Below are positions 25,825-30,073 of a DNA stretch of 32,172 nt, piece after piece. How positions within the stretch are numbered: the stretch's first letter is position 1; each line of letters starts with the position of its first letter. Below the pieces are notes generated by a model. That model made no database searches, was not told where the DNA came from, and saw only the letters and a program-made list of their open reading frames with translations. The position numbers were made by a program, and so were the translations under genes. The DNA comes from Cyclobacteriaceae bacterium. Its GTDB lineage: Bacteria; Bacteroidota; Bacteroidia; Cytophagales; Cyclobacteriaceae. The stretch lies in assembly GCA_026989505.1 (NCBI GenBank), contig JALSJF010000025.1, forward strand, positions 1 through 32,172, written 5' to 3'.

Positions 25825-25920
25825 CAGACAGCCTTTTTAAAAGTTAGAAAATGTAGATTTTTTCGTAATACTTCTGTAATAATTAGTTCGGAGCTTTGGG
25901 TTTAAACAAACTCAAATGCT

Positions 25921-27231
25921 ATGAAAAAATTATTTTATGCAACAATTATTGCCTTTATTGGCATAACTGCCTGTAAGAAGGATGATGAGATGCCGCAGGC
26001 TTCTTCCGGGTTCACCGTAGTGGTGGAGAACGTAAGCGAGCCGAAAGCCTATTTCCAAACCGGGGTGTTTAATACACCCGTTGGCGATACCAGCCCGGGG
26101 CCGGCTACTCCGGGTAAAACCTATAGCTTTTCATTTAATGCCGGTATTGGCCATTACCTGTCTTTTTCAACCATGTTTGTGCAATCAAATGATCTATTCT
26201 ATGCTCCGGCCGATACGGGCATAAAATTATTTGACGATACCGGAATGGCTATAACGGGCGATATTACGGCCCAAATATACCTCTGGGATGCCGGTACTGA
26301 AGTAAACCAGGAGCCAGGCGTGGGGACGGACCAGCCCCCGAGGCAGTCGGGCCCCAATACAGGGGCTGCTGAAAACGGCACCATCAGGATGATTTCACAG
26401 GTTATGGACGGGTACACCTACCCGGCCGTGAATGAAGCGGTTAAGGTAATGCTTAGCTATGATGGCAGCAATATGTTTACCCTTACCATTGAGAATATCT
26501 CTGCCGGTTCGGCTGTTGAAACCCCGCTGGCCCCCGGGGTGTGGTTGGTGCATGATAATACCGGGAAGTTATTTACGGCCGGGGGAATGGCCTCAATGGG
26601 GATGGAGCAAATAGCGGAAGATGGTGACCCCTCAACCATGAATGCTAACCTGGCCATGAACAGCGGCTATGTTTCCCCGTTTGCCCCCGGGGTTTTTGTG
26701 GTAGCAGCCAGTGGTAGCATGCCCTTGTTTGTTAATGGTAACCCGGATTTAGGGGAGGGCCTGGAGGCCCTGGCGGAAGATGGCGATCCAAGTGGGTTGG
26801 CAGCCGCCCTTGCGGGTAAAGCAGGTGTGATGAGCAGTGGGGTGTTTAATACCCCGGTTGGTGCTGGCGGCCCGGGGCCACTTATGCCAGGAAGTAGCTA
26901 TTCCTTTGAAATTACCGCTTCGGAAGGCGACAGCTTTAATTTTGCTACCATGTTGGTACAATCAAACGATCTTTTTTTCGCCTTCGAGGATAGTGGTATT
27001 GCCTTATTTAACAATGGCACACCGGTTAGCGGAGAGATGACAGTTAGTGTAAGCCTTTGGGATGCCGGCACGGAGGTAAACGAGTTTCCCGGTGCAGGTA
27101 TGGGCCAGCCCTTGCGGCAGGCCGGGGCAAATACCGGTACCACAGAAAATGGGGTGGTACAAAAGGTAAATGATGGTTTTGCTTACCCTGCTACTGATGC
27201 CATGATTAAACTTACCATTACGCCAAAATAA
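25921..27231 (+). CDS. spondin-domain lipoprotein with internal duplication
   Basis: A lipoprotein signal (FIGITACKK, Cys18) is followed by a spondin-N-like domain (about 28-150), a middle region with two APGV repeats (PLAPGVWLVHD and PFAPGVFVVAA, each followed by AEDGDPS), and a second spondin-like domain (about 305-436). The halves share GVFNTPVG, SYSF, VQSNDLF, LWDAGTEVN and GxxxGQP(L/P)RQ(S/A)G. In animals spondin-N is an extracellular adhesion domain; in bacteria the role is unknown. It is alone, downstream of the two-component pair, and may be one of its targets (inference). A good terminator follows at 27256. Confidence 0.85.
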   Translation: MKKLFYATIIAFIGITACKKDDEMPQASSGFTVVVENVSEPKAYFQTGVFNTPVGDTSPGPATPGKTYSFSFNAGIGHYLSFSTMFVQSNDLFYAPADTGIKLFDDTGMAITGDITAQIYLWDAGTEVNQEPGVGTDQPPRQSGPNTGAAENGTIRMISQVMDGYTYPAVNEAVKVMLSYDGSNMFTLTIENISAGSAVETPLAPGVWLVHDNTGKLFTAGGMASMGMEQIAEDGDPSTMNANLAMNSGYVSPFAPGVFVVAASGSMPLFVNGNPDLGEGLEALAEDGDPSGLAAALAGKAGVMSSGVFNTPVGAGGPGPLMPGSSYSFEITASEGDSFNFATMLVQSNDLFFAFEDSGIALFNNGTPVSGEMTVSVSLWDAGTEVNEFPGAGMGQPLRQAGANTGTTENGVVQKVNDGFAYPATDAMIKLTITPK

Positions 27232-27255: not shown

Positions 27256-27287
27256 GAAGGGCCGGCTTTGCCGGTCTTTCTGTTTTT
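27256..27287 (+). terminator. intrinsic terminator of the spondin lipoprotein gene
   Basis: An 11-bp stem (27256-27266 with 27270-27280, two G-T pairs, core CCGGC/GCCGG) with loop TTT, followed by TGTTTTT. It overlaps the end of the convergent Fe-S gene. Confidence 0.75.
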
Positions 27288-28086
27288 ACTCCCCGGAAGA
27301 TTTGGCAACCAACTCAGCCAGGTCAAGCACCTTTACGCTTTCTTCGGGGTAGTTGTTTTTAAGGCCGTCTTCGAGCATGGTCATACAAAACGGGCAAGCC
27401 GAAGCCACAATTTCGGCCCCGGTGGCCAGCACATCATCGGTGCGCTCGGCATTAATTTCTTTTTGGCCCGGCTCCGCTTCTTTAAACATCTGTGCCCCTC
27501 CCGCCCCGCAGCAAAGGCCGTTGGTTTTGCAGCGTTTCATCTCTACCAGGTCGGCATCGAGGGCTTCCAGCACGGCCCGGGGCGCCTCGTAGATAGCATT
27601 GGCGCGGCCCAGGTAACAGGAATCGTGGTAGGTTATTTTTTTGCCTTTAAACGCCCCGCCACCGGCAACCTTTACTTTGCCCTCGTTAATCAGTTGTTGC
27701 AGGAAGGTAGCGTGATGGACCACCTCATAATTACCGCCCAGGGCAGGGTATTCATTTTTAAACGTATTGTAGCAATGCGGACAGGCGGTGACTATCTTTT
27801 TAATATTGTAGCCCTCCAGTACCTGGATATTGGCTGTAGCCTGCATTTGAAACAGGAACTCATTGCCTGCCCGCCTGGCCGGGTCCCCGGTACAGGTTTC
27901 TTCTTCGCCCAGTACGGCAAACGAAATGCCCACCTGATTAAGGATTTTAACGAAAGCCCGGGTAACGGCTTTATAGCGCTCATCAAAAGAGCCGGCACAT
28001 CCTACCCAAAATAACACCTCTGGCGACTCGCCTTTGGCGGCCAGTTCGGCCATGGTTGGAATGTTAATAGTTGTATTACGTGACAT
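27286..28086 (-). CDS. (Fe-S)-binding protein with two CCG domains
   Basis: A 266-residue cytoplasmic Fe-S protein of the HdrB/GlcF/LutA type. Each half has a cysteine-rich CCG-like module: first FWVGCAGSFD, TCTGDPARRAGNE and ACPHCYNTFKNEYP; second HDSCYLGR, GLCCGAGGAQMF and ACPFCMTMLEDG. These bind a cubane-type cluster and pass electrons. In the first half the canonical Cys-Cys-Gly is Cys-Thr-Gly. The partner is the membrane Fe-S protein at 28602-29921; the two would be adjacent but for an inserted IVS gene and heptad repeats. The physiological donor and acceptor are unknown. Confidence 0.9.
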   Translation of the reverse strand: MSRNTTINIPTMAELAAKGESPEVLFWVGCAGSFDERYKAVTRAFVKILNQVGISFAVLGEEETCTGDPARRAGNEFLFQMQATANIQVLEGYNIKKIVTACPHCYNTFKNEYPALGGNYEVVHHATFLQQLINEGKVKVAGGGAFKGKKITYHDSCYLGRANAIYEAPRAVLEALDADLVEMKRCKTNGLCCGAGGAQMFKEAEPGQKEINAERTDDVLATGAEIVASACPFCMTMLEDGLKNNYPEESVKVLDLAELVAKSSGE

Positions 28087-28111
28087 TAGCGTTTAGTTAA
28101 CAAATTATTTA

Positions 28112-28188
28112 TTACGATTTACGATTTACGACTTACGATTTACGACTTACGGTTTGCGATTTACGATTTGTGATTTACGGTTTACGGT
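28112..28188. repeat. 11 tandem heptanucleotides (TTACGAT-like)
   Basis: Exactly 77 bases divide into 11 units of 7: TTACGAT four times, TTACGAC twice, TTACGGT three times, plus TTGCGAT and TTGTGAT. The tract lies between the Fe-S gene start and the end of the four-helix-bundle gene. Confidence 0.9.
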
Positions 28189-28225
28189 TTTAGAATTGCG
28201 TAGTTTAAGTTTAAGAGATATTATG

Positions 28226-28582
28226 TCATCCATTTTTCTTTTGATTTTCTCTTAAAGTTATTAAGGATTTAACAAAGATGGCAAGCAATTCATCCCCCTC
28301 CAGGTAGACTTTTGCCCATTTTCCCTTCTCTTTTTCAGAGAGCTCGGAGATAATTTCTATAAAAAAGAGTGATTCGTCCAGTTCTTCTTCAACAATCTTA
28401 AGTTTGTTAATAAAATCACGTGTTGATTTGGCCCTACATGCGGCCCTGTAATTAGCTCCTACCGAACTTGAACAACGAATTAGTTGCCTTTTATAGTCAA
28501 TAAACTCTTTTGGCAGTGTCTGGCATAACCTCCAAGCTTCTATAGTAAACATTTTAGTTCGTTGTAGTAATTCTTTTTTCAT
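28226..28582 (-). CDS. four-helix-bundle protein of the 23S rRNA IVS family
   Basis: A protein of 118 residues, almost entirely helical. The blocks FTIEAWRLCQTLPKE, YKRQLIRCSSSVGANYRAACRAKSTRDFINKLKIVEEELDE and SLFFIEIISEL are characteristic of the four-helix-bundle family first seen in 23S rRNA intervening sequences. Biochemical function is unknown. It sits on the same strand between two Fe-S genes that normally belong together, next to heptad repeats, which suggests an insertion. Only 19 bp separate it from the upstream Fe-S gene, so it is probably co-transcribed. Confidence 0.88.
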   Translation of the reverse strand: MKKELLQRTKMFTIEAWRLCQTLPKEFIDYKRQLIRCSSSVGANYRAACRAKSTRDFINKLKIVEEELDESLFFIEIISELSEKEKGKWAKVYLEGDELLAIFVKSLITLRENQKKNG

Positions 28583-28601
28583 TAATGGTATGCCGTAAAT
28601 C

Positions 28602-29921
28602 TTAATTCCTTAGCTCATCTGCCCATTTAAACCTGTCGGAGGGGGCAAACTTCCAGGGGGAAAAGCTGGTTTCAATATTCTGGAACATGGCATTCCACTC
28701 TGCCGGGGCGCTGCTTTCTTCCATGACCAGGTACCTGCGCAATTCAATAATGATGGTCAGCGGGTTAATCAGCACCGGGCAGGCTTCTACACAGGCATTG
28801 CAGGTGGTACAGGCATTAAGTTCTTCGCGGGAGATGTAATCATCGAGCAGGAACTTGCCATCGTCTGCGCCCTTGCCCCCGGCCAGCAGGCTGCGGGTAA
28901 TTTCTTCGGCCCGGTCGCGGGTGTCCATCATAATTTTTCTGGGCGACAGCTTCTTGCCGGTTTGGTTGGCCGGGCACTCGGCTGTACAGCGCCCGCATTC
29001 GGTACAGGTAAAGGCGTCCATAATGTTTTTCCAGCTAAGGTCGGTTACGTCTTTGGCCCCGAAACGCTCCACTTCGGCTGGTGGTGCTGCATCGGCAGGC
29101 TGCAGCCCGAGCATTATTTTCACCTCGTTGGTAACGCTGTTCATATTGGTAATCTCCCCTTTGGGTTTCAGGCTGGCGTACCAGGTATTGGGAAAGGCCA
29201 TAAAAATATGCAGGTGCTTGGAATAGGTTACATAAATGGCAAAAGCAAGGATACCGGTAATGTGTACCCACCAGAAGGCACGCTCAAAACCAACCAGCGT
29301 GGGGGTAGAAAAGCCATCAAAAAAGGGCATCAGCAGCGAACTGAAAAACAGTCGCCCGGTGGCCGTATAATGTTCTGCCCCCCGGGCTTGCAGCAGTTGA
29401 TCGGTGGCATTCATTTTCAGGATGGCCACTACCAGGATGATTTCAAAAACCAGGATCAGGTTGGCGTCAAGAAACGGCCAGGCCTTCATTTCGGGCTTAT
29501 GGAAACGGGGTACTTTAAGAATATTCCTGCGGATGAGAAAGAAGACACAGGCCACCAGCACGCCTACTGCCAGGAACTCAAAAAAGTTCAGCAAGACAGT
29601 ATAAAACGTACCCAAATACGGGGCAAAAATACGGTGGGTACCTGCCAGGCCGTCAATTATGATCTCCAGCACTTCAATATTGATTAGCACGAAGCCCACA
29701 TAAACAAATAAATGCAACAGGGCAGGGACAGGCTTTTTAAACATTTTTTGCTGCCCGAAGGCCACCAGCAGCATGTTGCGCCAGCGTGCCGGTTTGTTGT
29801 CGGTAAGGTCTTGCGGCTTGCCCAGGTTGATACTTGTTTTGATAAATTTAATGCGCCTGACCAGCAGGAAAGTGGCCGTGGCCACCAGCACCAGGAATAA
29901 AACTTGTTGTAAATAGGCCAT
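28602..29921 (-). CDS. membrane-bound 4Fe-4S dicluster oxidoreductase subunit
   Basis: The N-terminal half has about six membrane helices (about 5-22, 68-88, 102-128, 150-170, 188-205, 215-232) resembling the cytochrome b/NarI-like unit of respiratory complexes, with possible haem His residues in the helices. The C-terminal half holds two 4Fe-4S clusters: Cys306, 309, 312, 316 (CTECGRCTAEC) and Cys371, 374, 377, 381 (CTTCNACVEAC), each followed by Pro. This is the HdrC/GlpC-like plan. With the CCG protein at 27286 it should pass electrons between a cytoplasmic donor and the quinone pool or another acceptor. Confidence 0.9.
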   Translation of the reverse strand: MAYLQQVLFLVLVATATFLLVRRIKFIKTSINLGKPQDLTDNKPARWRNMLLVAFGQQKMFKKPVPALLHLFVYVGFVLINIEVLEIIIDGLAGTHRIFAPYLGTFYTVLLNFFEFLAVGVLVACVFFLIRRNILKVPRFHKPEMKAWPFLDANLILVFEIILVVAILKMNATDQLLQARGAEHYTATGRLFFSSLLMPFFDGFSTPTLVGFERAFWWVHITGILAFAIYVTYSKHLHIFMAFPNTWYASLKPKGEITNMNSVTNEVKIMLGLQPADAAPPAEVERFGAKDVTDLSWKNIMDAFTCTECGRCTAECPANQTGKKLSPRKIMMDTRDRAEEITRSLLAGGKGADDGKFLLDDYISREELNACTTCNACVEACPVLINPLTIIIELRRYLVMEESSAPAEWNAMFQNIETSFSPWKFAPSDRFKWADELRN

Positions 29922-29992: not shown

Positions 29993-30065
29993 GGTGATAT
30001 AGCTCAGTTGGTAGAGCATCGGACTGAAAATCCGTGAGTCGGTGGTTCGAGTCCACCTATCACCA
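29993..30065 (+). tRNA. tRNA-Phe (GAA)
   Basis: A 73-nt cloverleaf. The acceptor arm GGTGATA pairs with TATCACC, the D arm contains AGCTCAGTTGGTAGAGC, the anticodon loop CTGAAAA gives GAA at 30026-30028, and the T arm is GGTGGTTCGAGTCCACC. The discriminator base is A and CCA is not encoded. The anticodon stem has four pairs plus a T-T mismatch at the outer position. Confidence 0.97.
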
Positions 30066-30073
30066 CGTACCGG

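Follow-up and report, generated by a model that had tools for sequence, protein, structure and literature searches.

In Coxiella burnetii, the 23S rRNA intervening sequence (IVS) carries three tandem GACAGAT heptamers before an S23p open reading frame, their number varies between strains, and the IVS is excised by RNase III (PMC4990558). The same paper cites an early proposal in which 23S IVSs are remnants of a mobile element, and describes a Xanthomonas relative of the four-helix-bundle (4HB) protein as a homopentameric toroid; the portion of its text that was available does not generalise the Coxiella heptamers. Avd, a component of diversity-generating retroelements (DGRs), is homologous to PF05635 (PMC10053308). 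In most genomes surveyed for them, heptanucleotide repeats are reported to outnumber all other long simple repeats, for which polymerase slippage has been offered as the cause, and TAACTGA arrays occur in Beggiatoaceae, cyanobacteria and five Bacteroidetes, with no transfer mechanism given in the accessible part of that account (PMC4679880). GGGAATC heptamers are over-represented in Xanthomonas and have no accepted cause (PMC4692102; four-helix proteins, S23 and XCC0516 go unmentioned in its available text), and the cyanobacterial STRRs are intergenic 7-bp repeats that fold into hairpins and have no known function (PMC2670836). Our literature search, to which subscription journals and bioRxiv were mostly external, found no publication joining 4HB genes, inverted heptad arms and insertion.

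Orphan S23p/4HB genes without known function are widespread, a single peptide pattern matching at least 590 times in a collection of species genomes. Here we describe one of them, which lies between two Fe-S genes of a Cyclobacteriaceae bacterium. The insert that contains it is probably one copy of a widespread family of mobile elements of ~0.4-0.6 kb, each with a 4HB gene between inverted heptad arms and a protein that we infer to be the reader of those heptads.

The insert between two Fe-S genes

The window, by which we mean the whole stretch of 32,172 nt that was analysed, contains the features listed in Table 1. An earlier note on this DNA had placed a 4HB gene and about 11 heptads in the 515-nt gap between the Fe-S genes, and both are confirmed: the protein scores above the cut-offs of PF05635 (45.9 bits vs 33.8; Pfam) and TIGR02436 (66.2 bits vs 24; NCBIfam), and TRF reports TTACGAT in 11.3 units with 81% matches and a score of 102. 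AF2 predicts a four-helix bundle (pLDDT 95.4), and the profile scores and predicted fold together place the protein in the TIGR02436/PF05635 (S23p) family. The solved folds nearest to the AF2 model are 2rld and 2gsc (five chains each), followed by the Avd structures 8ub7 (TM 0.75) and 4dwl (TM 0.72), with Foldseek E-values of 0.02-0.04. Pfam and NCBIfam profile searches found no nuclease, recombinase or RT domain in the window protein, and thus the autonomy of the element is unproven; the same two collections gave only the 4HB family, and no Y1 HUH transposase of the kind found in REP/RAYT systems.

Table 1. Parts of the insert and the genes on either side (window coordinates)
Feature	Position	Strand	Remarks
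Whole insert, candidate mobile element copy	28087..28601	-	515-nt spacer between hdrB-like and hdrC-like genes
Short 5' arm GATTTACGGC	28592..28601	-	Reverse complement of heptad units in the 3' array; inverted score 25
4HB gene (TIGR02436/PF05635, S23p/Avd fold)	28226..28582	-	118 aa, net charge +5
3' arm, 11.3 tandem heptads	28112..28190	-	TTACGAT on + strand, AAATCGT on gene strand
hdrC-like membrane Fe-S protein, upstream neighbour	28602..29921	-	Profile matches
hdrB-like CCG-domain Fe-S protein, downstream neighbour	27286..28086	-	Profile matches

The array (lag-7 score 46) is the only one with a TRF score above 50 among the 10 arrays that TRF found in the window, and it lies 3' of the 4HB stop codon on the gene strand, where its unit reads (AAATCGT)n. 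Its inverted partner, GATTTACGGC, directly abuts the stop codon of the hdrC-like gene and base-pairs with the array in the predicted minimum-energy RNA fold, although the inverted score of this copy is marginal (equalled or exceeded in 8 of 128 mismatched comparisons) and the folding energy of the insert is ordinary, not better than that of shuffles (z -1.02). The "adjacent tandem repeat" of the earlier note is real, but it is one arm of an inverted pair, of which the other arm is very short and goes unmentioned in the note.

Nearby, a tRNA-Phe gene (GAA; 29993-30066, + strand) lies just upstream of the hdrC-like gene. A 436-aa lipoprotein-like ORF (25921-27231) consists, by eye, of two tandem copies of one domain, and its start falls in a 16-bp tandem duplication (25920-25950).

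The Fe-S genes are adjacent in 15 of 18 relatives, with ~21-241 nt between their matched parts and no 4HB gene; in the remaining three, the second Fe-S gene lies outside the stretch examined. In one of the 15, from another genus (L003, contig C33 of genome G002), the hdrC-hdrB spacer contains, by eye, a hairpin that lacks a gene and is built of a different heptad (ACAAGAA...TTCTTGT). The comparison of relatives that the earlier note had proposed therefore yielded sites without the 4HB gene but did not define the ends of the insert: the insertion ends and any target duplication cannot be read in the window because the same-genus relative has too dissimilar a spacer.

Elsewhere in this genome, TTACGAT-like tracts occur only on contig C248 (~28492-28600; L056:1439-1606), where solo arrays (GTAAATCGTAAATCGCAACTCGTAACTC...) have units in common with the window array, lack a 4HB gene and sit, by eye, between RNase HII-like and MoeA-like ORFs. 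The other intact 4HB gene of the genome, on C185, is flanked by CTTCGAG-type units, and a broken 4HB fragment, which contains an in-frame stop and lacks heptads (C26:20962-21120), is possibly a dead copy. As a correction to the earlier note, the heptad is thus not TTACGAT at every 4HB gene but differs between subfamilies; arrays as such accompany most of the other family members examined.

Heptad arms insert together with the 4HB gene

A search of 19 genomes gave 75 TIGR02436 matches in 17 of them, and 71 were examined with their flanks. Lag-7 scores of at least 14 were found in 29/65 5' flanks and 32/67 3' flanks (a minority had lag 6 or 8), compared with 8 of 1312 control tiles of 300 nt from 8 genomes. 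A chance origin of arrays at 4HB loci is ruled out by their rarity in these 1312 tiles. When lags 6-8 are admitted and loci are scored on either side (11/1312 single control tiles reach 14), arrays accompany 47/65 loci from the relatives, 20/28 of the window subfamily, 10/10 on plasmids and 57/77 in a multi-phylum set, but only 13/28 of the L044 subfamily.

The two arms are inverted and matched at each locus. The 5' flank resembles the reverse-complemented 3' flank of its own locus (median 34) more than that of mismatched loci (median 18), and 51/65 loci fall in the top 5%, whereas direct 5'/3' similarity is near background (median 20 vs 18; top 5% in 15/65); six of the 71 loci, with short flanks, were left out. 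The multi-phylum set consists of the 80 best matches, out of at least 590, to a single peptide pattern (three with short flanks left out), and inverted similarity is again higher within its loci (median 32 vs 18; top 5% in 45/77). Lag 6-8 arrays occur there in 37/48 loci from Bacteroidota and 20/29 from other phyla, the latter including Geobacter, Vreelandella, Gastranaerophilales, Cloacimonadota and Clostridia; in Vreelandella (L298), GTGAGTG-type units extend over >200 nt before the gene and ACTCACA units over >600 nt after it. In the Luteimonas family, 29/60 genomes encode the 4HB family. Arrays with lag 6-8 accompany 21 of the 30 loci analysed there and lag-7 arrays 20, while the inverted-arm score exceeds the 95% point in 12 (the 30 come from 40 matches; fragment L413 and nine others were left out). 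The arms are also oriented relative to the gene, with a GC skew of +0.20 on the 5' side and -0.18 on the 3' side.

Units of 6, 8 or 10 nt instead of 7 were noticed at L093 (G014:C55), L077 (G018:C22), L285, L292, L034 and L076. Since L034 and L076 both have mainly 8-nt units, unit length may follow protein kinship.

One query placed 4HB genes on 30 of 72,556 plasmid records, mostly cyanobacterial, and a one-query search of 50,697 phage records found none. Ten of the 30 plasmid records were opened at the 4HB gene, and two loci (L368 and L382) were added through later searches. All ten genes lie between mutually co-directional genes, nine of them in the direction of these neighbours, which are cas6 and cas4 (twice), cas10 and cmr3, nrdB and nrdA, conjugation genes and others. 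Heptads adjoin every one of the ten, with an inverted partner by eye in nine and a weak one in L356, and no RT or DGR repeats are annotated beside them. The elements at L355, L356 and L364, all on cyanobacterial plasmids, lie inside CRISPR operons (cas6/cas4 and cas10/cmr3).

In a conjugation operon, two filled plasmids could be compared with three empty ones that are ~97% identical. The empty site reads AAAAAGTAATTAACAAA and the filled site AAAAAGTAAT-element-GTAATTAACAAA, the insert being 428 nt including a 5-bp target duplication, GTAAT. Heptads are absent from the empty site, and the duplication encloses both arms, which rules out heptads as pre-existing targets. The second filled copy is exactly 14 nt shorter, a difference of two heptads in the 5' arm, and by eye two further plasmids have at this site a hairpin without the gene (L375) and a truncated 4HB remnant that retains heptads (L369), respectively. 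A second element (L362 compared with L379, ~91% identical) has the target duplication TTCTA, with a one-base uncertainty in the right flank. Filled and empty pairs confirm insertion at the TraM, nrd, cas10/cmr3 and integrase sites as well, although divergence blurs the ends at these four and at L361.

Thus, the gene and its arms insert as a unit between co-directional genes, with a 5-bp duplication in the two cases resolved to the base. The heptads belong to the inserted unit, and in one case their number changes between copies. Filled and empty sites together with a target duplication, the mark of a transposable element, are found on plasmids (GTAAT and TTCTA); for the window copy only the filled and empty sites can be read. 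The suggestion of the earlier note that the insert is a mobile or spreading unit, kin to the 23S IVSs, is strengthened by the 15 of 18 relatives without the 4HB gene, by the arrays at most of the other family members examined and by the 5-bp duplications on plasmids.

Heptad cores, protein subfamilies and gene-less arrays

Across 64 loci (7 of the 71 with stops or <100 aa were left out), the similarity of the periodic segments increases with protein identity. A prediction was fixed beforehand, namely that homologues of the window protein at ≥45% identity would have TCGT-core heptads and L044 homologues CAGTCGG. In 291 genomes, TACGA-NN-TACGA on the 5' side or its complement on the 3' side was found in 14/17 homologues at ≥50% identity (17 of 18 matches were examined), compared with 1/12 remoter homologues and 0/28, 0/80 and 0/66 in other locus sets, which overlap slightly (L233 = L074, L210 = L035). 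On the 5' side of the close homologues, the core is forward in 11/17 and reversed in 1/17, and the opposite orientation of the core is confined to single loci. All five homologues examined at 45-50% identity lack the TACGA core, and the predicted limit of 45% therefore held only from 50% up. The prediction for L044 was borne out in part: a GCAGT core occurs in 5/16 of its close homologues, compared with 1/12, 0/29, 1/80 and 0/68 in the other sets.

Common flanking genes are found at 11 of 29 window-subfamily loci, which are also 11 of the 17 close homologues, and this single genomic context indicates vertical inheritance in that lineage. TACGA-type cores occur in further contexts (the window, L186, L193, L196/L199 and L203, some by eye) and are missing at L189 and L200. 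We also compared 189 loci, using only pairs from different genomes and removing all pairs with common flanking genes. Heptad similarity reaches 25 in 62/330 pairs at ≥60% protein identity vs 2-3% of pairs below 45%; the observed difference is reached in 0/1000 permutations and in 5/2000 shuffles within genomes, which keep the vocabulary of the host. As judged from these sequence comparisons, the heptads vary between loci but track the 4HB protein subfamily across genera and contexts.

Heptad arrays without a 4HB gene are common. For example, the CAGTCGG pattern has 858 matches in G014 and its reversed control 5 (counts of overlapping registers, not of arrays); the count for G002 was not used because the reversed-pattern control was high (86 vs 144). 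Among the first places listed in three sets, a 4HB gene is present at 1/13, 0/23 and 3/29 distinct array loci. By eye, the six most recurrent ORFs near the arrays of each set are repeat translations and host genes, and in the TACGA set also 4HB genes. TACGA arrays are present in 24/32 genomes with the window subfamily vs 33/259 without it (Fisher p 3e-13, ignoring phylogeny), an association with some circularity, since the arms of the 4HB genes themselves, the window array among them, match the pattern too. GCAGT arrays do not accompany the window subfamily (8/32 vs 40/259). TACGA arrays also accompany the other subfamily (13/21 vs 44/270) and occur in 28/247 genomes that have neither of the two. 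The association of solo arrays with subfamilies is confounded by 4HB-rich genomes.

A possible heptad reader, its alternatives and known systems

How such an element might work can be sketched from these observations. A ring of 4HB subunits would read its cognate heptad array, in DNA or in RNA, at about one unit per subunit, with five constant letters of each heptad contacted and two variable letters serving as spacer. The TRAP ring reads spaced triplets, which provides an analogy for the proposed reading of heptads. With the arrays read in this way, the two ends of the element could be brought next to each other for mobilisation, while a different enzyme would carry out the chemistry; to judge from the staggered 5-bp cut, this would be a strand-transfer enzyme from the host or from another element. 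Solo hairpins may be non-autonomous derivatives used in trans, or may be left after loss of the gene. In host transcripts, the arms would pair and could be trimmed by RNase III as in the 23S rRNA IVSs, and operon spacers might be tolerable targets because transcribed arms can be removed in this way.

An alternative is a MITE-like unit that depends on an ordinary DDE transposase acting in trans; the 4HB gene would then be cargo, or a stabilising or regulating accessory. Inverted ends and a 5-bp target duplication are what this alternative leads one to expect, and it fits the greater frequency of array loci without the gene. We nevertheless regard it as rather unlikely, because the heptad ends track the 4HB protein as the ends of an element track its own recognition protein. 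Across many phyla, the 4HB gene is what stays constant in a recurring layout, although the loci were chosen by that gene, and no transposase is among the six most recurrent ORFs near arrays in each of three sets, a weak argument that was made by eye and meets the objection that an enzyme acting in trans need not be near.

The orientation of the arms relative to the gene, evident in the GC skew and in the 5' bias of the TACGA core, would also be expected if the 4HB protein were an RNA-binding autoregulator that reads the heptads in its own mRNA, with mobility incidental or ancient. Avd-like proteins do occur in an RNA-protein complex (the DGR structures, 8ub7), and 11 of 29 window-subfamily loci lie at one conserved site. 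This account is improbable, in our estimate, since it leaves unexplained both the gene-less hairpins and the joint insertion of gene and arms with a target duplication. Independent origin of the heptads by polymerase slippage, with 4HB genes merely landing in or beside arrays, can be given very little credence: it has been proposed for the bacterial heptanucleotide excess (Mrazek, as told in the available parts of PMC4679880 and PMC4692102) and solo arrays are abundant, but the empty conjugation-operon site is heptad-free with both arms within the target duplication, the arms are inverted and locus-matched, and the core remains subfamily-specific even in different hosts.

Returning to a mobile family with its own heptad reader, 4HB genes and heptanucleotide repeats are now linked and can move together with a target duplication of fixed length. 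The idea of 23S IVSs as mobile relics is extended from rRNA to ordinary operons, and for each 4HB subfamily there is now a predicted nucleic-acid ligand amenable to bench testing. The element family may also help to explain the many unexplained seven-letter repeats of bacteria. More tentatively, and somewhat short of what we would call probable, these elements could constitute a new class of transposable elements in many phyla, in which an Avd-like pentameric ring reads a spaced heptad code at its own inverted ends and moves its own and, in trans, gene-less units with borrowed catalysis, much of the heptad excess being its footprint. If this were true, the cyanobacterial STRRs, the Xanthomonas GGGAATC repeats, the heptads of Bacteroidota and the IVS heptamers of Coxiella would be the footprint of one family.

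Among described systems, the 23S rRNA IVSs of Coxiella and Leptospira are similar in having the same protein family, a 428-nt IVS and terminal inverted repeats around the gene, as far as the accessible description goes. An S23p ORF within stem-forming inverted repeats is likewise found in the family described here, weakly so in the window copy with its ~10-nt 5' arm. The window unit, however, lies between protein genes (hdrC-like and hdrB-like) and not in rRNA, and no rRNA was found at 20 scanned loci of the multi-phylum set (best 80 of at least 590). Unlike the 23S IVSs, 4HB elements show a 5-bp duplication and gene-less copies, and their arms may be long heptad arrays matched to the subfamily. 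Avd of the DGRs is predicted to have the same fold as the window protein.

REP/REPIN-RAYT and MITE systems, the former with an HUH (Y1) nuclease as the RAYT and the latter dependent on DDE transposases, resemble 4HB elements in combining a gene-bearing copy and gene-less hairpins with similar ends in one genome; 4HB elements differ from both in that their ends are heptad arrays of variable length and that Pfam and NCBIfam give the 4HB protein neither an HUH nor a DDE domain. The BrickBuilt MITE of P. gingivalis was considered as the same element and rejected (its units are 23 nt, and no mention of 4HB was found).

The Xanthomonas heptamers and the cyanobacterial STRRs, for which the available text of PMC4692102 and PMC2670836 gives no mechanism, are like 4HB arms in being 7-nt, intergenic and often hairpins, as described there. 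At least two GGGA[A/T]TC units lie near the gene in 12/30 4HB loci of the Luteimonas family, and the link to the Xanthomonas heptamers is only suggestive because the exact dimer GGGAATCGGGAATC occurs in 1/30. For the STRRs, the ten cyanobacterial plasmid 4HB loci likewise carry heptads between genes.
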